Below are positions 4,561 through 12,625 of a stretch of DNA of 36,918 nt, one piece after another. Numbering within the stretch: the first letter of the stretch is position 1; the number at the start of each line of letters is the position of its first letter. This stretch comes from Nitrospirota bacterium (GTDB taxonomy: Bacteria; Nitrospirota; Nitrospiria; SBBL01; JAADHI01). The stretch covers positions 1 to 36,918 of the forward strand of contig JAJDBU010000049.1 in assembly GCA_029261195.1 (NCBI GenBank). The letters run 5' to 3'. The notes under the pieces are model-generated. The model did not search any database, was not told the DNA's origin, and worked only from the letters and a program-made list of their open reading frames with translations. Position numbers and translations under genes: made by a program.

Positions 4561-5616
4561 TTACATATCCAGTTTTTTCAAATGTTTTACATCATCCGAA
4601 AATTGATTGCGCTCCGCCTTTGGCATTGGAATCAAACCCCGGTCGCTCAGGTAGCCTTCATCGCCCCAGGCTTTTTCACTCGTAAATTCTTTGAGATAGG
4701 CCTTCATTCCCGGGATGACATTGATATGAGCCTTTTTAACATAAAAGTAGAGCGGACGGGAAATCGGGTAGCTACCGTCTGCAATAGATTCAAACAGCGG
4801 GTTCACGCCTTTGATCGAAGACCCTTGAACTTTGTCCAAATTTTGGTCTAGGAAGCTGAAACCAAAAACACCGAGGGCATTGGGGTTTGCCTGAAGTTTT
4901 TGGACAATCAAGTTGTCATTTTCCCCGGCCTCAATATAGGCGCCATCTTCTCGAACCGTGTGGCAGAGCCGTTTGTAGGCTTTTTTATCCTTTTTTTTCA
5001 TCGCCTTGATCCATTTGAAGGTTTTGCATCCGCCTTCCAAGGCAAGCTCGACAAAAGCGTCACGGGTCCCCGAGGTCGGTGGCGGACCCAGCACTTCGAT
5101 TTTTTGGTTCGGAAGTTTTGAATTGACCTCTTTCCAGGTTTTATACGGGTTTTCGACCAACCGTTCTCCCCCTTTGGGATCGGGCACATTTTTGGCCAAG
5201 GCCAAGAACAGGTCACGCAGTTCAAGCGAAAATTTTGTCGCTTTTTTTGAGTTGGCGATTGCAATACCGTCATAGCCGATTTTGACTTCAACGATCTCAT
5301 CAACGCCATTTTTGTGACATTTTTCAACTTCTGATTTTTTAATGCGCCGTGATGCATTGGTAATATCAGGATGCTCAATGCCCACTCCGGCGCAGAACAG
5401 TTTTAAACCACCGCCTGATCCCGTTGACTCGACCTTGGGTGTCTTAAAAGCAGTTGTTTTTCCAAATCGTTCCACAACGACGGTCGCAAAAGGATAGACC
5501 GTTGAAGAACCGACAATGCTGATATGGTCACGTGCGGCTTGCGCCGGAGTAAAACCCATCGCCAGTGAAGATGTTGCAAGGGCCAAGACTACAAGTTTTT
5601 TAATTTTCATGGTCAT
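4561..5616 (-). CDS. pstS: Periplasmic phosphate-binding protein PstS
   Basis: Captures phosphate in the periplasm and hands it to PstCA. The 351-residue protein starts with a Sec signal peptide (KIKK, hydrophobic core, cleavage after PAQA near 27). Ligand-loop motifs are visible: GSSTVYPF at 36-43, STGSGGG at 64-70, TNASRR at 86-91 and SGTRDAF at 182-188, the set that binds phosphate in this family. ATG 5616 sits four bases after AAGGAG; ATG 5610 (ten bases after it) is an equally plausible start. A longer frame from 5646 would put a non-signal extension before the leader. First gene of pstSCAB, with phased Pho-box hexamers 67-105 bases upstream. Confidence 0.95.
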   Translation of the reverse strand: MTMKIKKLVVLALATSSLAMGFTPAQAARDHISIVGSSTVYPFATVVVERFGKTTAFKTPKVESTGSGGGLKLFCAGVGIEHPDITNASRRIKKSEVEKCHKNGVDEIVEVKIGYDGIAIANSKKATKFSLELRDLFLALAKNVPDPKGGERLVENPYKTWKEVNSKLPNQKIEVLGPPPTSGTRDAFVELALEGGCKTFKWIKAMKKKDKKAYKRLCHTVREDGAYIEAGENDNLIVQKLQANPNALGVFGFSFLDQNLDKVQGSSIKGVNPLFESIADGSYPISRPLYFYVKKAHINVIPGMKAYLKEFTSEKAWGDEGYLSDRGLIPMPKAERNQFSDDVKHLKKLDM

Positions 5617-5682
5617 TTCTCTCCTTGTTTTAAATGCAAATAACAAACTATTTAAACTACGAGAGACAGAGTAAAGAGACTA

Positions 5683-5721
5683 TGTGATGAAAGAATGAAG
5701 GCTATGTTAAGTTTCTGTGAA
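5683..5721 (-). promoter_or_regulatory. Pho box upstream of pstS (four phased hexamers)
   Basis: On the minus strand the hexamers TTCACA (5721-5716), TTAACA (5710-5705), TTCATT (5699-5694) and ATCACA (5688-5683) recur every 11 bp, one helical turn. The first two match the TT(A/C)ACA-N5-TT(A/C)ACA pattern known for PhoP of Bacillus. Predicted PhoB binding site; no experiment is implied. Confidence 0.75.
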
Positions 5722-5938
5722 CTTGTTTGACCCCAATTGAAACGAGAGGGATTGTTATATAAAATTTGCTTGCCGGGATCGATCTCCATTATTAGGAAAG
5801 CGTTGATTCAGTCAGGCTTGAAATTTTCAAGAGAAAAAATTTTCAGATTCAAGGCGAAAATTACGCTTGCAACAATCCTCCTTCAGTAGAAAACCTTCCG
5901 AAGCTCTAAAATCTGATCTGCGATCATTGTTTGAATAG

Positions 5939-5977
5939 TTTACTCAATCTTCACAATTCGCTCATCATTTCTCAACA
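5939..5977 (+). promoter_or_regulatory. Pho box upstream of the porin gene
   Basis: Hexamers TTTACT (5939), TTCACA (5950), CTCATC (5961) and TCAACA (5972) are phased at 11 bp. Only the second is a perfect match to the pattern found upstream of pstS and phoB, so this site is weaker than those. The pstS and porin genes are divergent; the 471 bases between their starts hold both Pho boxes and no recognisable gene. Confidence 0.55.
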
Positions 5978-6087
5978 TAAACCCCCTAACATCCCGCTTG
6001 TCTATTGAAGACAAATAAAAGTGGAGAGTGAGCGCAAGGCATGTCTGGGCGCTCTCAATAAAAAGAATCTATAACGAGGAGGTTTTT

Positions 6088-7323
6088 GTGTTTAAGAATT
6101 TGATAACAAAAATAACAGTTTCACTTGTAGTGATCAGTATCATGACTTTAAGTGTCTTTTCTACGGCTTCTGCGGGCGGTGTGACTGTCTTTAAAGAGGG
6201 CGACAAATACGTCAAAATGGGCGGTCGGATCCAGATGCAGTATCATCAAAAAGATCCTGATGGCGGAGATGCGACCGATAGTGTGTTCTTTCGACGTTTT
6301 CGTCCCTATGTTGAAGGCAGCATTCACAAGGATTGGAAAGGAAAGTTTCAGTGGGACATGGGCAAAGCCGACGGAAGTAATGAACTTGCTGTAAAAGATG
6401 CTTATATGCAGTACAAGGGCTTTAACAACCTGAAAGTGACCCTGGGAAACACAAAAACACCTTTTTCACGTGAATTTCTCACTTCATCGAAGAAACAGCA
6501 ATTAGTAGAACGTACCTTTGTTGGTGACCATAATTTTGGATCTCCTGATCGAATGTTAGGCCTGAAACTTGAGGGACATAACGAAGATAAAATGATTGAG
6601 TACGGCGTGGCTTTTGGGAGCGAATCAATTGATCCTGACAACAATAAATTGGATTTTGACTCACCTGTCAATCAGAATTCTGATTTTAATGAAGGCTGGG
6701 TCGCTGCCGCACGTGTTGATTTTCATCCTCTTGGACACCTTGAAAAATCTCAAGGTGATTTTAAGGGAAAAACAAAGGCCACTATTGGTGTGGGTGTCTT
6801 TACTTGGAGTAACGACAATGACGTCCAAAATACTTCAAGCTCCACCACAACAACTGTAGACACGACAAATGCTGCCTGTCCGACGGCATGTCCCGTAAGC
6901 TCGTCAACAAGCAAAAGCGCGAGCACAAAAGATGTTGACGAAGCCACTGGTTTTGAAGTGAGCGCCGCGTTACGGATGATGGGGCTTTCTGTCGATGTTC
7001 AATATAATTCGATTGATGCCGACACAGTTGTCCCCGGTATCACAAGCGGCATCTATAAAAACGGCAGTACCACACTCAAAAGCTTTGCTGTGGAAGCCGG
7101 ATTTATGGTCGTTCCGAGCACACTTGAAGTGGCTGCGGGTTACCAATCTCAGGATGCGGATGGCTATGCCGAAGAATGGACTCGGACCTCTGTGGGTCTG
7201 AACTGGTTCATCAAAAAGCATGACATCAAAGTACAGGCAAGCTACCGGATGGGAGAAAGTCTTAAAGGCAAGGCAAATAAGGACGAGGATGAGATCTTCA
7301 TCCAAACTCAGTATGTCTTCTAG
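6088..7323 (+). CDS. Phosphate-selective porin of the OprP/OprO family
   Basis: Outer-membrane beta-barrel expected to pass phosphate or polyphosphate into the periplasm. From GTG 6088, five bases after GAGGAGG, the protein has 411 residues with a clear signal peptide ending STASA before GGVTVF. The body has alternating beta-strands typical of Porin_O_P (FFRRFRPYVEGSIHKDWKGK, LKVTLGNTKTPFSREFLTS) and ends in a C-terminal Phe (QTQYVF), the usual barrel-assembly signal. An ORF start at 6028 would bury the signal peptide. A Ser/Thr-rich segment around residues 250-280 with two nearby Cys (ACPTACP) looks like an exposed loop. It sits between pstS and other Pho genes with its own Pho box. Family assignment strong; phosphate selectivity inferred. 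Confidence 0.88.
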   Translation: MFKNLITKITVSLVVISIMTLSVFSTASAGGVTVFKEGDKYVKMGGRIQMQYHQKDPDGGDATDSVFFRRFRPYVEGSIHKDWKGKFQWDMGKADGSNELAVKDAYMQYKGFNNLKVTLGNTKTPFSREFLTSSKKQQLVERTFVGDHNFGSPDRMLGLKLEGHNEDKMIEYGVAFGSESIDPDNNKLDFDSPVNQNSDFNEGWVAAARVDFHPLGHLEKSQGDFKGKTKATIGVGVFTWSNDNDVQNTSSSTTTTVDTTNAACPTACPVSSSTSKSASTKDVDEATGFEVSAALRMMGLSVDVQYNSIDADTVVPGITSGIYKNGSTTLKSFAVEAGFMVVPSTLEVAAGYQSQDADGYAEEWTRTSVGLNWFIKKHDIKVQASYRMGESLKGKANKDEDEIFIQTQYVF

Positions 7324-7349
7324 TTTTCACTATCTGTATTCTAATCTAG

Positions 7350-7376
7350 GGTGGATGGGTTTCTTGCCCATCCACC
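7350..7376 (+). terminator. Strong hairpin after the porin gene
   Basis: GGTGGATGGG (7350-7359) and CCCATCCACC (7367-7376) form a perfect 10-bp stem with a 7-base loop, 27 bases after the porin stop. No T-tract follows, so it may stop exonucleases or be an incomplete terminator. The rest of 7377-7563 shows nothing I recognise. Confidence 0.55.
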
Positions 7377-7563
7377 ACCAAAAGTCTCTATTGATCGTGG
7401 CATCAACTATTTTGATCGATCAAGTCTAATCGCCGGGGGCAAGGAGGTTCTTTCCTCTTTAGTCAGCAGACACTGGCAGGGATTCTTCCCTTCTTGTCCT
7501 CGGTCCAAATGCCCTGATCATACCCGTGCTTGTCCAACATTTTTTCCTTCGGTTCTACCATCT

Positions 7564-7602
7564 TTCACAAAAACTTAACATCCGCTTCAAGAGACCATAA
7601 CA
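7564..7602 (+). promoter_or_regulatory. Pho box upstream of the sugar nucleotidyltransferase gene
   Basis: TTCACA (7564), TTAACA (7575), TTCAAG (7586) and ATAACA (7597) recur at exactly 11 bp. The first two match the pstS box. A possible -10 element (TATCTA at 7612 or CTATAA at 7615) lies downstream, followed by the ribosome site of the gene starting at 7661. Confidence 0.75.
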
Positions 7603-7660
7603 GTCGCCTTGTATCTATAAGATCAAATGAATGATCGACTTGATGAGGGAGGAAAAAGAA

Positions 7661-8590
7661 ATGAGCGTTGAAGAGAGACAAGCAGTTCGTTGCGGGATTA
7701 TTTTAGCTGCCGGAGAAGGAAAGCGTTTGAAGTCATTTGTGAAGAAATGGTCGGGAAGCGATTTGCCAAAACAGTATGTGAAGTTTACTGAAGAGGGCTC
7801 AAGCTTGGAGAGAACCTTTCAGCGGGTTGAAAAGGTGATTTCTCGGGAAAAGCTGTTTACCGTTGTTGACCAACAGCATCTTCAATATCCCGAGGCCTTC
7901 GATCAGCTGAAATGTCGACCTGAAGGACGACTTGTCTGTCAACCTCAGAATAAAGAAACGGCCCCCGGACTCCTGCTGCCACTCATTCATCTGCTCAAAC
8001 GCTACCCCCACGCAGATGTTGCTGTCTTTCCATCAGATCACCATATTGAGGAAGATGATCTTTTTTCAAGTTACTTGGAGCAGGCCTTTTCAGTTGTGGC
8101 AGATGACCCGTCCCGCATTGTTTTGCTCGGGATTGAGCCGAATCGTCCTGAAGTGGAATATGGCTATATCCTTCCAGGAAGCCCGATTGATCAAGGTCAG
8201 ACAGCCACTGTTGAAGGCTTTGCAGAAAAACCGAAAAAACAGATGGCGGAACGTCACATTTTAAATGGCGGGCTGTGGAACAGTATGGTCATGGTTTTTC
8301 AGAGCCAAACCTTGTTGAAATGGATTTTAAAAGAAATGCCTGCACTCTTTGGATCTTTTTTAACCATTTATACGGCCATTGGTACGCCTGAAGAAACAGA
8401 AATAACGGAGCGTGTTTACCAAGACCTTGAGCCACTTAATTTCTCAAGTCATTTTTTACATGAACTTGCCTTAAAACGACCTTCTCCTCTGTCCGTTTTG
8501 CCAATGCGAAACCTTTCATGGACCGACATCGGTTCTGAATCTCAAATTTTGTCCGTTTTAAAACGAGAAGAAAGGTTCCAGACCTGTTAA
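7661..8590 (+). CDS. Sugar-1-phosphate nucleotidyltransferase (mannose-1-phosphate guanylyltransferase-like)
   Basis: GT-A-fold nucleotidyltransferase that would join NTP and a sugar-1-phosphate, probably GTP and mannose-1-phosphate. The 309 residues show the nucleotide-binding signature AAGEGKRL (16-23) with PKQ (36-38), the NKETAPG motif (97-103), the metal-site stretch FPSDHH (123-128) and the FAEKP strand. The C-terminal isomerase domain of bifunctional ManC/AlgA is absent. ATG 7661 follows GGGAGG by eight bases, preferred to the upstream in-frame ATG at 7631. The gene lies alone between two Pho-island genes with four Pho hexamers ahead of it, suggesting envelope or exopolysaccharide precursor synthesis in phosphate starvation. 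GDP-mannose as product is inferred. Confidence 0.8.
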   Translation: MSVEERQAVRCGIILAAGEGKRLKSFVKKWSGSDLPKQYVKFTEEGSSLERTFQRVEKVISREKLFTVVDQQHLQYPEAFDQLKCRPEGRLVCQPQNKETAPGLLLPLIHLLKRYPHADVAVFPSDHHIEEDDLFSSYLEQAFSVVADDPSRIVLLGIEPNRPEVEYGYILPGSPIDQGQTATVEGFAEKPKKQMAERHILNGGLWNSMVMVFQSQTLLKWILKEMPALFGSFLTIYTAIGTPEETEITERVYQDLEPLNFSSHFLHELALKRPSPLSVLPMRNLSWTDIGSESQILSVLKREERFQTC

Positions 8591-8700
8591 TCCTTTCCTG
8601 AAATACCATACAAAAACATTTTAAATCAACACTTTAGACGAACTCTTTGGCGAAGCATCTAAAAAAATACATCCGAGCCAGATAAATTCTGTTTGGGGAT

Positions 8701-8748
8701 TTCATAAGTTTTTCACAATCTTAACCCGACAATCAGAAAACCGTAACA
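8701..8748 (+). promoter_or_regulatory. Pho-box-like hexamers upstream of the truncated phoX-like gene
   Basis: Two phased sets are visible: TTCATA (8701) with TTCACA (8712), and TTAACC (8721), ATCAGA (8732) and GTAACA (8743). Within each set the spacing is 11 bp, but the sets are offset by two bases (TTCACA to TTAACC is nine). This is a weaker or rearranged version of the neighbouring boxes. Confidence 0.5.
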
Positions 8749-8876
8749 AAAGACCTCTACGATAGGGATGTCCTCATAAAGGGACACGTTGTCAGGCGGA
8801 AGCTTATTTATGAAGTCAGCCTGGAATATTCATAAAAATGAAACAAAGGATCAAAACAAACCATAAGGAGAATATA

Positions 8877-9452
8877 GTGAAACAATTCAATACAAACTTC
8901 AAAAAGACACGGTTTGTTGCCAGCTTATTTCTTGCGGCGTTGGTGACATTCGTCGCGGTATATGCAGACGAAAACAAGGGATTCAATAAGGAACACGATT
9001 CCGCTCCAGAATCGGTCATCCCATATCGTTCAATGATACAAAACCCGGAAGCCCAAGTTTTGTTGGCAAAGGGACTTCATGTGAAGTATCTGACACGCAA
9101 TGCTGGCAACAAGGCAGACCTGTTTGCCTTCTTTCCGGCTGAAGAACCGACACATTTGATCGCCTGTGTTGAGGGCGGACGAGAATTGATTGCCGGCGCC
9201 GATCAATACAATCCTTCGGTTCAACGCGTCAATCTTACGACAGGGGAAGTAGACACGATGCTCCGTGGAATAGATCGCTGTGACGGCATTCGTTTGACCG
9301 CATGGGGAACGATTCTTGTCATAGAAGAAACGGATGATAGGGCAGCTTACGAAATTTTGAACCCATTAGAGTTCGTCGAGCAAACGGCGCTTGATCCTGT
9401 GAGGGGTCTTCTTAGTGATCCGATTCACATTGCAAAAAGAAGCAGCCCTTGA
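8877..9452 (+). pseudogene. C-terminally truncated PhoX-like (DUF839) phosphatase
   Basis: GTG 8877 follows AAGGAG by six bases and starts a 191-residue product with a signal peptide (basic KKTR, hydrophobic core, cleavage near VYA before DENKG). The rest matches, from memory, the N-terminal third of PhoX/DUF839 proteins: YRSMIQNPEAQVLLAKGL, HLIACVEGGREL, VQRVNLTTGEVDTMLRGIDR, CDGIRLTAWGTILVIEETDD. The frame stops after DPIHIAKRSSP, whereas this family normally runs to several hundred residues. Only about 70 bases separate the stop from the next gene, so the C-terminal metal and phosphate site is deleted. In another frame ALESHSGHTGRF may be a scrap of the lost part. Preserved promoter, signal peptide and ribosome site make it a recent loss; a secreted short product cannot be excluded. 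Confidence 0.65.
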
Positions 9453-9523
9453 ATCTCATTCAGGTCATACAGGCCGCTTTAAAAGGGCCACTGCAACATT
9501 CTACATTAAGATAGGAAAACAAC

Positions 9524-9970
9524 ATGAAGTTACAAGAAATCAAAGCAAAAAATATTTTCGACAAAGCACTACAACTCATCATCAACATCCTCATCATCTA
9601 CATCATTATTTTGTTGGTGATCGGGCTGGGAAAAACGATCATCGGCGTCAAAACACTCATGAACAATGACCCGATTGGGGATGCCTTCACAGGTATTGTT
9701 GCCGATATTCTGACCTTTTTAGTGATTATCGAACTGTTTCGGAATTTCATCGAGTATTTCAAAGCCCATCGTTTTCGTTTATATAATATGATGGATCCTG
9801 CGATTATTATTGTGGTGAGGGAACTGGTGGTTGGTCTCTACAAAAATGGACATTTTGCCTGGCAAGAACTCTTAGGATTCAGTGTCTTGATTCTATCTTT
9901 GGGAATCGTTCGTACGCTGGCCGTCCATTTTAGTCCGACCCGAAGCGCCAAACAAATCAAAGCGGCCTAA
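9524..9970 (+). CDS. PsiE-like phosphate-starvation-inducible membrane protein
   Basis: A 148-residue inner-membrane protein with four predicted helices (about 20-42, 58-76, 88-106 and 114-134). It resembles the PsiE family: short cytoplasmic N-terminus, IGLGKTIIG after the first helix, and an acidic/aromatic ELFRNFIEYF segment after the second. PsiE genes are phosphate-starvation-induced in E. coli; the biochemical role is unknown. It lies 71 bases after the broken phoX-like gene and would share that Pho promoter. A strong terminator follows. A short inverted repeat, GGCCTAAA/TTTAGGCC (9964-9987), overlaps the stop codon. Confidence 0.75.
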   Translation: MKLQEIKAKNIFDKALQLIINILIIYIIILLVIGLGKTIIGVKTLMNNDPIGDAFTGIVADILTFLVIIELFRNFIEYFKAHRFRLYNMMDPAIIIVVRELVVGLYKNGHFAWQELLGFSVLILSLGIVRTLAVHFSPTRSAKQIKAA

Positions 9971-10011
9971 AGACCTGAGTTTAGGCCGTCATAGCAGAGA
10001 AAGCATGAATC

Positions 10012-10043
10012 AATCGACTGCCTCGCATCAGTCGATTTTTTTT
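10012..10043 (+). terminator. Rho-independent terminator after the psiE-like gene
   Basis: AATCGACTG (10012-10020) pairs with CAGTCGATT (10029-10037) around an 8-base loop and runs into a row of T. It separates the psiE-like unit from the phoB promoter. Confidence 0.85.
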
Positions 10044-10056
10044 GCAATATAAAAAG

Positions 10057-10095
10057 TTCACACAAATTTAACAAAGACCTCATATCGTTTTAACC
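10057..10095 (+). promoter_or_regulatory. Pho box upstream of phoB (autoregulation)
   Basis: TTCACA (10057), TTAACA (10068), CTCATA (10079) and TTAACC (10090) are phased at 11 bp, directly after the preceding terminator and 66 bases before the phoB start. The arrangement implies positive autoregulation of phoBR. Confidence 0.75.
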
Positions 10096-10160
10096 GGGGG
10101 AAGTTGTTATATTGGGATCACTCCGTTTTTGAGCATCACAAAAATAAAGGTAGGTTCAGC

Positions 10161-10859
10161 ATGTCGAAAAAAAAGATTCTCATTGTTGAAGATGATCACA
10201 ATCTTTCACAGTTGATTATTTATAATTTAGAGAAATCCGGCTTTCATTGTTTTTCTGCACATGATGCAGAATCGGGTTTAGATCTCCTCGCAAAAAATGA
10301 AATGGACTTGGTGGTACTCGATATCATGTTGCCAGGAATGGATGGTTTTGAATGCTGCAAAAAAATCAAGCAAAACCCGAAACAGCATCATGTTCCGGTC
10401 ATTATGCTCACAGCAAAAAATGAAGAAATCGACCGGATTGTTGGTTTTGAATTGGGCGCGGATGACTATGTTGCAAAACCCTTTAGTACGAGAGAATTGA
10501 TCTTAAGAGTCAAAGCGGTCTTAAAACGAGCCAAGCGACCCGATGCAGAGGGCGAAGTCCTTTCCATTGAGGACTTAAGCATTGATATCCCTCGTCACCG
10601 AGTAACGGTCAAAAAAAAAGAAGTTGTGTTCACGCATATGGAATTTAAACTCTTGCTGACACTCGTGCAAAGAAAAGGACGTGTGCAATCGCGTGATCAA
10701 TTATTGGAGGATGTTTGGGACATCGAAAGTGATGTCACCACTCGAACGGTCGATACGCATATTCGGCATTTAAGGCAAAAGCTGGGAGAGATGGGGAAAT
10801 TGATCGAAACGATCAGAGGTTTGGGGTATCGGATTTACGAAGAGGAATCGCTGAGTTGA
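10161..10859 (+). CDS. phoB: Phosphate regulon response regulator PhoB
   Basis: OmpR/PhoB-class transcription activator, 232 residues from ATG 10161. The receiver domain (1-120) has the acidic pocket EDD 10-12, phospho-acceptor Asp 54 in VVLDIMLPG, Thr 84 and Lys 106 in VAKPF. The C-terminal winged helix (about 132-228) has the recognition region TTRTVDTHIRHLRQKLG and ends in the GLGYRI hairpin. The upstream in-frame start at 10104 would add an unlikely 19-residue extension. The stop overlaps the phoR start (TTGA), indicating translational coupling. The Pho cluster around it and the phased boxes make PhoB rather than a generic OmpR relative very likely. Confidence 0.93.
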   Translation: MSKKKILIVEDDHNLSQLIIYNLEKSGFHCFSAHDAESGLDLLAKNEMDLVVLDIMLPGMDGFECCKKIKQNPKQHHVPVIMLTAKNEEIDRIVGFELGADDYVAKPFSTRELILRVKAVLKRAKRPDAEGEVLSIEDLSIDIPRHRVTVKKKEVVFTHMEFKLLLTLVQRKGRVQSRDQLLEDVWDIESDVTTRTVDTHIRHLRQKLGEMGKLIETIRGLGYRIYEEESLS

Positions 10860-12625
10860 AAATCAACATCCAGTCCAAAATCACCCTCCTATTTACCTTC
10901 ACTACCGCCATCACCCTCTCCATCGCTTATCTTTATCTCAATGAAAATTTAAAAATACACACCCACCAGAACATCAAAATCGAACTCAAAAAGAAAACCA
11001 CACTCGTAAAATATAGCCTTGAAAAAATGAAAGCTGAGCAGATTGCCCCCGATCAAATCGATCAGATTACCGATCAACTGGGAGAAGACCTTCAACTCAG
11101 GGTAACGATCATCTCACTTAAGGGCCTTGTGCTGGGCGATTCTGAATTAGAGGGGACAAAACTGCTAGAAGTTGAAAACCATCTTCAGCGTCCTGAAGTT
11201 CAAGCGGCCCAAAATTTTGGATTGGGTGAAAGCGCGCGTTTTAGCACGACGGTCAACAAAAACATGTTTTATGTGGCAATGCGTTTTGATCATGACCGTT
11301 TAGGCGGCTATGTTCGTCTTTCCCTTCCGCTTTCAGAAATTGAGCTTATTTCAACACAGCGCAAAGGTATTAGTGCGGTCTCCCTTTTTATTGTCTTTGT
11401 GATGGTTGTTTTCATTAATTTTTTTGCTTCTGCCTTTATTTCAAAACCGATTCGAGTGATGTCAATTACGGCAAAGCGGATAGCAAAAGGGCATTTCTCA
11501 AAAATCAGCACGATCTCCCTAAATGATGAGATCGGAGATTTAGCGAAAGCCTTTAACGAAATGTCTGAACAACTGGAATCACGTGTAAGAGAAATGAATC
11601 TCAGTCGTTCCAGATTAGAAGCCGTTCTACTTAGTATGTTTGAAGGGGTTTTGGTGCTTGATGCCCAGGGGAAGATTTTGTTGGTCAATGACTCACTCAG
11701 AGATTTTTTTGATCTCAAGGGCGATGTAAAAGAGAAAAATATGATTGAAGTCATTCGACATCCTAAGATCCAAGACATCGTGAGTGCTGTCTTAAAAAGT
11801 GAATCTCGTTTAAAACCTTGTGAAATATCCGTTTTAAGTTCTGAAGAACTTAGCTTATCCGTTTATGCGACACCCGTTATTCGGGACAGTCAGCAGGAAG
11901 GGGCCATCCTTGTTTTTCATGACCTTACGAATGTAAGGCGGCTTGAAAAAATCCGGCAGGATTTTGTTGCCAATGTCTCCCATGAATTGAAAACCCCCAT
12001 TGCCAGCATCAAAGGTTTTGCCGAAACCTTGTTGGAAGGCGCACTTGACGATAAAGAACATGCAAGAAATTTTCTACAGATTATTTTTACAGACGCCGGT
12101 CGTCTCTCCATTTTAATTGATGACTTGCTCAATCTATCGAAAATAGAATCCGGCAAGTTGAACATGTCACTCAAACCGGTGCGCTTATCCCCGGTGGTTA
12201 AAAAGGTCATTGCGAGTTTAAAACCTCAGGCAGAAAAAAAATCAATCACACTTGCGCTGAGCATTCCCACCCACCTGCCTGAGCTCATCGCCGATGAAGA
12301 ACGCCTCATCCAAGTTTTTTTTAATCTGATTGACAATGCCATTAAATACAGCGAGGTGAATGGCCACATCAAAATTTCAGCCGTGGAGGACGAAAACAAT
12401 GTTGAAATTTCAGTTTCTGATGATGGCATTGGCATTCCAAAAAAAGATTTACCTCGACTCTTTGAGCGCTTCTACCGCGTAGACAAGGGCCGCTCCAGAG
12501 ACCTCGGTGGCACGGGTTTAGGGCTTTCAATCGTCAAACACATTGTTAAAGCACATCAGGGTGACATTTCTGTTGAAAGTAAATTAGGGAAAGGAACAAC
12601 CTTTTTTTTTACGCTCCCAAAGTAA
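10856..12625 (+). CDS. phoR: Phosphate regulon sensor histidine kinase PhoR
   Basis: Inner-membrane kinase that phosphorylates PhoB. It starts at a TTG overlapping the phoB stop and has 589 residues. Helix 1 is at about 9-28, a periplasmic sensor of about 140 residues follows, and helix 2 is at 172-194. HAMP spans about 195-248, a PAS domain about 253-362, and the phospho-acceptor His is 376 in NVSHELKTP. The ATPase domain has the N-box NLIDNAIKYS with Asn 494, DDGIGI at 522-527, LFERFYRVD and GGTGLGLS at 551-558. All catalytic boxes are present. The large periplasmic domain is typical of PhoR/WalK outside enterics, in contrast to E. coli PhoR. Confidence 0.93.
   Translation: MKINIQSKITLLFTFTTAITLSIAYLYLNENLKIHTHQNIKIELKKKTTLVKYSLEKMKAEQIAPDQIDQITDQLGEDLQLRVTIISLKGLVLGDSELEGTKLLEVENHLQRPEVQAAQNFGLGESARFSTTVNKNMFYVAMRFDHDRLGGYVRLSLPLSEIELISTQRKGISAVSLFIVFVMVVFINFFASAFISKPIRVMSITAKRIAKGHFSKISTISLNDEIGDLAKAFNEMSEQLESRVREMNLSRSRLEAVLLSMFEGVLVLDAQGKILLVNDSLRDFFDLKGDVKEKNMIEVIRHPKIQDIVSAVLKSESRLKPCEISVLSSEELSLSVYATPVIRDSQQEGAILVFHDLTNVRRLEKIRQDFVANVSHELKTPIASIKGFAETLLEGALDDKEHARNFLQIIFTDAGRLSILIDDLLNLSKIESGKLNMSLKPVRLSPVVKKVIASLKPQAEKKSITLALSIPTHLPELIADEERLIQVFFNLIDNAIKYSEVNGHIKISAVEDENNVEISVSDDGIGIPKKDLPRLFERFYRVDKGRSRDLGGTGLGLSIVKHIVKAHQGDISVESKLGKGTTFFFTLPK

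Follow-up and report, generated by a model that had tools for sequence, protein, structure and literature searches.

The 36,918-nucleotide contig JAJDBU010000049.1 of a Nitrospirota bacterium, analysed over its whole length and called the window below, belongs as contig C44 to an assembly of 3.04 Mb (genome G000). It carries a phosphate (Pho) island comprising pstSCAB on the minus strand together with genes for a phosphate-selective porin, a nucleotidyltransferase, a truncated PhoX, PsiE, PhoB, PhoR and PhoU. Each of five promoters in the island contains an array of four hexamers repeated at an 11-bp pitch (Table 1). We are highly confident that these arrays are the operators of the island's own PhoB, arranged in the standard class-II layout and spelled in letters specific to its family.

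Table 1. Pho operators, -10-like elements and genes of the island, in window coordinates.
Feature	Position	Strand	Description
pstS, phosphate-binding protein	4561..5610	-	PF12849
-10-like element of pstS	5668..5673	-	TACTCT, 9 bp past hexamer 4; offset statistics
Pho operator of pstSCAB	5721-5683	-	TTCACA/TTAACA/TTCATT/ATCACA, N5 spacers; 21/24; 0 mismatches to composite pattern
Pho operator of porin	5939-5977	+	TTTACT/TTCACA/CTCATC/TCAACA; 18/24
-10-like element of porin	5987..5992	+	TAACAT, 9 bp past hexamer 4; offset statistics
Phosphate-selective porin O/P	6088..7323	+	PF07396
Pho operator of nucleotidyltransferase	7564-7602	+	TTCACA/TTAACA/TTCAAG/ATAACA; 21/24
-10-like element of nucleotidyltransferase	7612..7617	+	TATCTA, 9 bp past hexamer 4; offset statistics
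Nucleotidyltransferase	7661..8590	+	PF00483
Pho operator of phoX remnant-psiE unit	8710-8748	+	TTTTCA/TTAACC/ATCAGA/GTAACA; 18/24
-10-like element of phoX remnant	8758..8763	+	TACGAT, 9 bp past hexamer 4; offset statistics
Truncated phoX	8877..9452	+	191 aa
psiE	9524..9970	+	PF06146
Terminator-like stem and T run	10012-10037
Pho operator of phoBR	10057-10095	+	TTCACA/TTAACA/CTCATA/TTAACC; 21/24
-10-like element of phoB	10105..10110	+	TGTTAT, 9 bp past hexamer 4; TTATAT 2 bp further on; offset statistics
phoB response regulator	10161..10859	+	PF00072+PF00486; recognition helix RTVDTHIRHLRQ
phoR sensor kinase	10856..12625	+

The arrays were scored by the matches of their four hexamers to TTMACA (M, A or C; maximum 24), and every pitch from 7 to 15 was scored across the window. 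The hexamers quoted for pstS, the nucleotidyltransferase and phoB in a preliminary description of this sequence are present letter for letter, and the degenerate versions it reported at the porin and phoX-like promoters proved to be arrays as well. At pitch 11, eight positions reached at least 18/24, all of them being the arrays of these five promoters or shifted overlaps, in agreement with the proposed five units. The pitches 7-10 and 12-15 gave only 0-2 matches as scattered singles, and perfect TTMACA pairs occurred three times at pitch 11 and not at all at the other pitches tested. In 100 order-1 Markov simulations of the window, the number of positions per window was 0.32 at ≥18 and 0.04 at ≥19, with none at ≥20; three of the observed sites score 21.

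Among 17 aligned operators of the window's family, the four hexamers showed on average 5.5, 5.5, 3.8 and 4.9 matches of 6 to TTMACA, the first spacer usually being nAAnC. The flanking 11-bp units showed 1.5-2.4 matches, i.e., background, indicating that the unit number is exactly four. Two PhoB dimers in tandem, as already suggested from the four phased half-sites, are the natural reading. Orthologous or similar operators are found in relatives: 5' of pstS in G003 (L173), before the porin O/P genes of G002 and G003, and before the full-length phoX of G006.

A further feature, which the preliminary description had missed, is a -10-like TAnnnT element 9 bp after hexamer 4. The mean match to TATAAT was 3.88 at offset 9, compared with at most 2.54 at the other offsets from 0 to 29, and TAnnnT was present at offset 9 in 15/26 instances versus 0-1 at other offsets. 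None of the five promoters showed a consensus -35/-10 pair for sigma-70. Provided that the N9 element is the -10, the arrays span about -60 to -22.

This geometry is known from E. coli, whose boxes are described as sitting 10 bp ahead of a -10 TAN3T/A (PMC1906773). In the register GTCATA, the E. coli phoA, phoB, pstS, phoE and phnC promoters have the same N9 distance to the -10, and E. coli PhoB promoters consist of 11-bp direct-repeat units with no -35, as do those of the island, where the array replaces the -35 in the same manner. The E. coli pstS promoter is likewise made of four units, the third of which deviates (GTCATA, GTCATA, TACATA, GTCACC, N9, TATTTT), a deviation common to the pstS promoters of the window, E. 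coli and Clostridia. As generally seen for operators of the PhoB/PhoP family, the island arrays are 11-bp direct repeats on one DNA face, located 5' of phosphate-starvation genes and phoB. Because of the shared N9 geometry, we regard the island promoters as standard PhoB class-II promoters with lineage-specific letters: they lack the CTGTCAT half-site letters of E. coli, having T instead of G at hexamer position 1, and the island PhoB has His in place of Arg201 and Thr in place of Val197 (E. coli numbering) in its recognition helix. C at position 3 of TTCACA is as in the E. coli GTCATA. A known switch in a local dialect, rather than a new mechanism, is well supported.

Under phosphate limitation, PhoR would phosphorylate PhoB, and two PhoB dimers would then bind head to tail on one DNA face to four half-sites, of which 1 and 2 are presumably strong, 3 the weakest and 4 intermediate. 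The array ending 9 bp before the -10 would stand in for the -35 element, and the promoter-proximal PhoB could, as happens in E. coli, recruit RNA polymerase via sigma region 4. The likely targets are pstSCAB, the phosphate-selective porin, the nucleotidyltransferase, the phoX remnant with psiE, and phoBR, whose operator predicts autoregulation of phoB. Relative to sister lineages and E. coli, the half-sites have T in place of G at position 1, a difference that probably goes along with the loss of Arg201.

As for specificity, the genome-wide scans were pattern searches. The composite pattern TTMACA-N5-TTMACA-N6-TCA-N8-TMACA-N9-TANNNT, allowing at most 3 mismatches, gave five matches in the 3.04-Mb genome, all in the island, and none with the reversed pattern used as the control. 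A scan with a site-derived pattern, proposed earlier as a check, is thus confined to the five pho-island promoters. The accompanying prediction of regulon members elsewhere in the genome failed at usable stringency: neither the composite pattern nor two looser ones found any outside the island, the first looser pattern adding six matches against five in the control, i.e., background, and the second giving five, all in the island, against one. As far as these patterns reach, the regulon coincides with the island. The exact pair TTMACA-N5-TTMACA occurs four times genome-wide, three of them in the island; the fourth (C31:25079) was rejected on its context, lying between two minus-strand genes on a strand that points away from both.

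Applied to 15 genomes from the window's family and order, the composite pattern produced 28 matches, compared with one for the control. At least 11 of the 20 distinct sites examined in these relatives precede pstS-type, porin O/P, Porin_5, PsiE or PhoX genes, the others being located 5' of an HGSNAT-type acyltransferase gene or of genes without assignment. A de novo expectation-maximisation search on sequences 5' of pho genes, with the 11-bp period as the sole prior, recovered TTcACAnnnnC for the window's family (log-likelihood 117.7 vs. 33.3 shuffled) and ctTaACATngn for Clostridia (161.0 vs. 39.6 shuffled), whereas it was uninformative for the Nitrospira, other Nitrospirota, Negativicutes and Proteobacteria sets, which were dominated by coding sequence.

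Might the arrays be chance or compositional repeats of AT-rich intergenic DNA? Their hexamers are AT-rich, and a tandem-repeat-like match exists at a GspE-/GspF-like gene junction (C18:106956). We give this explanation practically no credence in view of the simulations, the pitch and reversed-pattern controls, the fixed -10 offset and the conservation in relatives, and for the three strong sites (pstS, nucleotidyltransferase and phoB) it is already refuted. The match at the gene junction is an 11-bp-period GTAACAGAGGT repeat (G000:C18:106956-107009, L258), which looks like a short tandem repeat and was rejected as a Pho site.

Several points weigh against assigning the arrays to the island PhoB. 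Two of the five arrays, those of the porin and the phoX remnant, are degenerate. The composite pattern was drawn from the five sites, which makes their own recovery a matter of construction; the independent evidence is the silence elsewhere in the genome and the matches in relatives. A paralogous regulator of the OmpR/PhoB type could also bind similar repeats. The idea that such a regulator, and not the adjacent PhoB, binds the arrays draws on the 45 matches to PhoB in the genome and on a phased TTCATA array beside another histidine kinase-regulator pair in G006. We nevertheless consider it very unlikely: the sites are concentrated at phosphate genes and at phoB, the PhoB-like protein that ranks next among the matches listed is only 36% identical, and the island pstS is the only PF12849 gene found in the genome. 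The array in G006 (L252:4217, minus strand; G006:C53) consists of four phased TTCATA/TTCACA units followed by N9 and TATATT, and lies 5' of a gene whose product is a putative secreted protein. It probably belongs to a different OmpR/PhoB-type regulon with the same layout.

Returning to the island PhoB as the regulator, we compared its operators with those of other phyla. The preliminary description had called them a Bacillus pattern in a Gram-negative bacterium. The letters and spacing indeed fit the B. subtilis PhoP box consensus TT(A/T/C)ACA with a spacer of 5 ± 2 bp (PMC3036859). At activated promoters, PhoP boxes have their centres between -66 and -17 (PMC5253667). The label nevertheless holds only in part. 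The 11-bp unit and the -10 distance are also those of E. coli, and TTAACA-type arrays with N9 to the -10 precede pst/phoB genes in Clostridia, Negativicutes and other Nitrospirota. On the Bacillus side, the letters were compared using the published B. subtilis consensus and 28 half-sites from Clostridia pstS promoters; the latter share T at position 1 with the island, whereas C at position 3, as in E. coli, occurs in 0/28. Island-type half-sites have T at position 1 in 75% and G in 7% (5/68), C at position 3 in 37/68 (54%), and A or C at position 6 in 65% and 18%, respectively. What sets the island boxes apart is that they have both T at position 1 and C at position 3.

Other known boxes share the frame as well. 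The Streptomyces PHO boxes (GTTCACC) have 11-nt units with a TTCAC core (PMC4415409), both found in the island, but the CC ending is not kept, position 6 being mostly A. The cyanobacterial SphR boxes (CTTAACCT) are tandem 8-bp units with 3-bp linkers, giving an 11-bp pitch, with a TTAAC core and at least three units (PMC1906773); the island shares this pitch and has four units, but mostly A instead of C at position 6, and thus not the CTTAACC unit. The boxes of other Nitrospiria (GTAACA/TTAACA) also precede pstS and phoB as four units at an 11-bp pitch with N9 to the -10. They differ in having G at position 1 in 21/40 half-sites compared with 5/68 of the island type, and C at position 3 in 3/40 compared with 37/68; their PhoB has Arg201, the island PhoB His201. 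The half-sites in these comparisons of letters, including those with Clostridia, were chosen by likeness to a model of the TTMACA kind, and promoters that are related do not count as independent, so that the Fisher values overstate the certainty. The promoter grammar (four hexamers, 11-bp pitch, N9 and TAnnnT) thus holds across E. coli, Clostridia and Nitrospirota with varying letters, so that phosphate genes in uncultured genomes could be found by layout as well as by consensus.

The fit to the Bacillus consensus raises the question of whether phoB and its TT(A/C)ACA operators were transferred together from a Firmicute. The island PhoB carries His at position 201, as in Negativicutes and Kroppenstedtia, and is not of the type of Nitrospira and family f5, which three sister genomes carry as well. 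In a PhoB tree, the island type formed a separate clade (support 99), distinct from the Nitrospira/f5 type and from every Firmicute group, although deep branches are poorly supported. PhoB of family f6, from the same class as the window's genome, is 72-75% identical to that of named Nitrospira, a kinship from which the class of the window was taken to be that of Nitrospira. Moreover, Thr197 and C at hexamer position 3 did not occur in the pst systems of Clostridia that were compared, and targets such as porin O/P and PsiE are not typical Firmicute genes. We therefore judge such a transfer improbable.

The family-specific spelling of the island PhoB operators may be related to the recognition helix. 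In the E. coli PhoB-DNA structure, Arg201 hydrogen-bonds a guanine and Val197 contacts thymines (PMC3973317). Residue 201 is His or Asn in the family of the island PhoB, His in Negativicutes, mostly Gln, Tyr or Asn in Clostridia, and mostly Arg in other Nitrospiria and Proteobacteria. G at position 1 occurred in 25/43 half-sites of systems with Arg201 compared with 5/104 without it. Counted by locus, Arg201 was accompanied by G in 11 cases and not in 2, and other residues by G in 2 and not in 22. A strict rule that Arg201 reads G at position 1 was rejected as not significant, because the tree provides only 1-3 independent contrasts. Cyanobacterial SphR, which is reported to keep the PhoB contact residues yet uses CTTAACC (PMC1906773), also speaks against it and is probably a counterexample. 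The connection between T for G at position 1 and the loss of Arg201 is suggestive, not proven, and position 201 is a candidate for how the letters of PhoB operators change.

The sister genomes G001-G003 carry an additional f5-type PhoB with Arg201, and G001-G004 contain a second pstSCAB operon with TTAACA/GTAATC-type boxes; the loci concerned are L241 in G002, L242 in G004, L243 in G001 and L244 in G003, together with L249-L251. In G000, a second pst operon was not found (one PF12849 gene), nor was a second close PhoB among the matches listed. The island could conceivably be a second, insulated Pho system, in which PhoB (His201, Thr197) and the TTCACA operators changed together, so that sister genomes with the Arg201 PhoB and the second pst operon would read two different operator sets, with only the island system found here. 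We put this forward tentatively, with doubts prevailing; what holds most interest here is that sister genomes may use two Pho dialects side by side.

Among the order-level relatives, Pho-type arrays stand 5' of a gene for an HGSNAT-like membrane acyltransferase in G015, G011 and G013 (L209, L210 and L217). The G013 protein contains PF07786, and those of G015 and G011 look alike by eye. In this order, the enzyme may modify the envelope or lipids in response to phosphate.

The gene described earlier as phoX-like is indeed related to phoX, but it is a truncated remnant, matching the N-terminal part of the 503-aa PhoX (PF05787) that is encoded in full length in the sister genome G006, with the C-terminal part absent. 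The remnant has retained its Pho box, and psiE starts 71 bp 3' of the remnant, so that psiE may have become the main gene under this box. The stem and T run that separate psiE from the phoB operator resemble a terminator, in keeping with phoBR being a separate unit.

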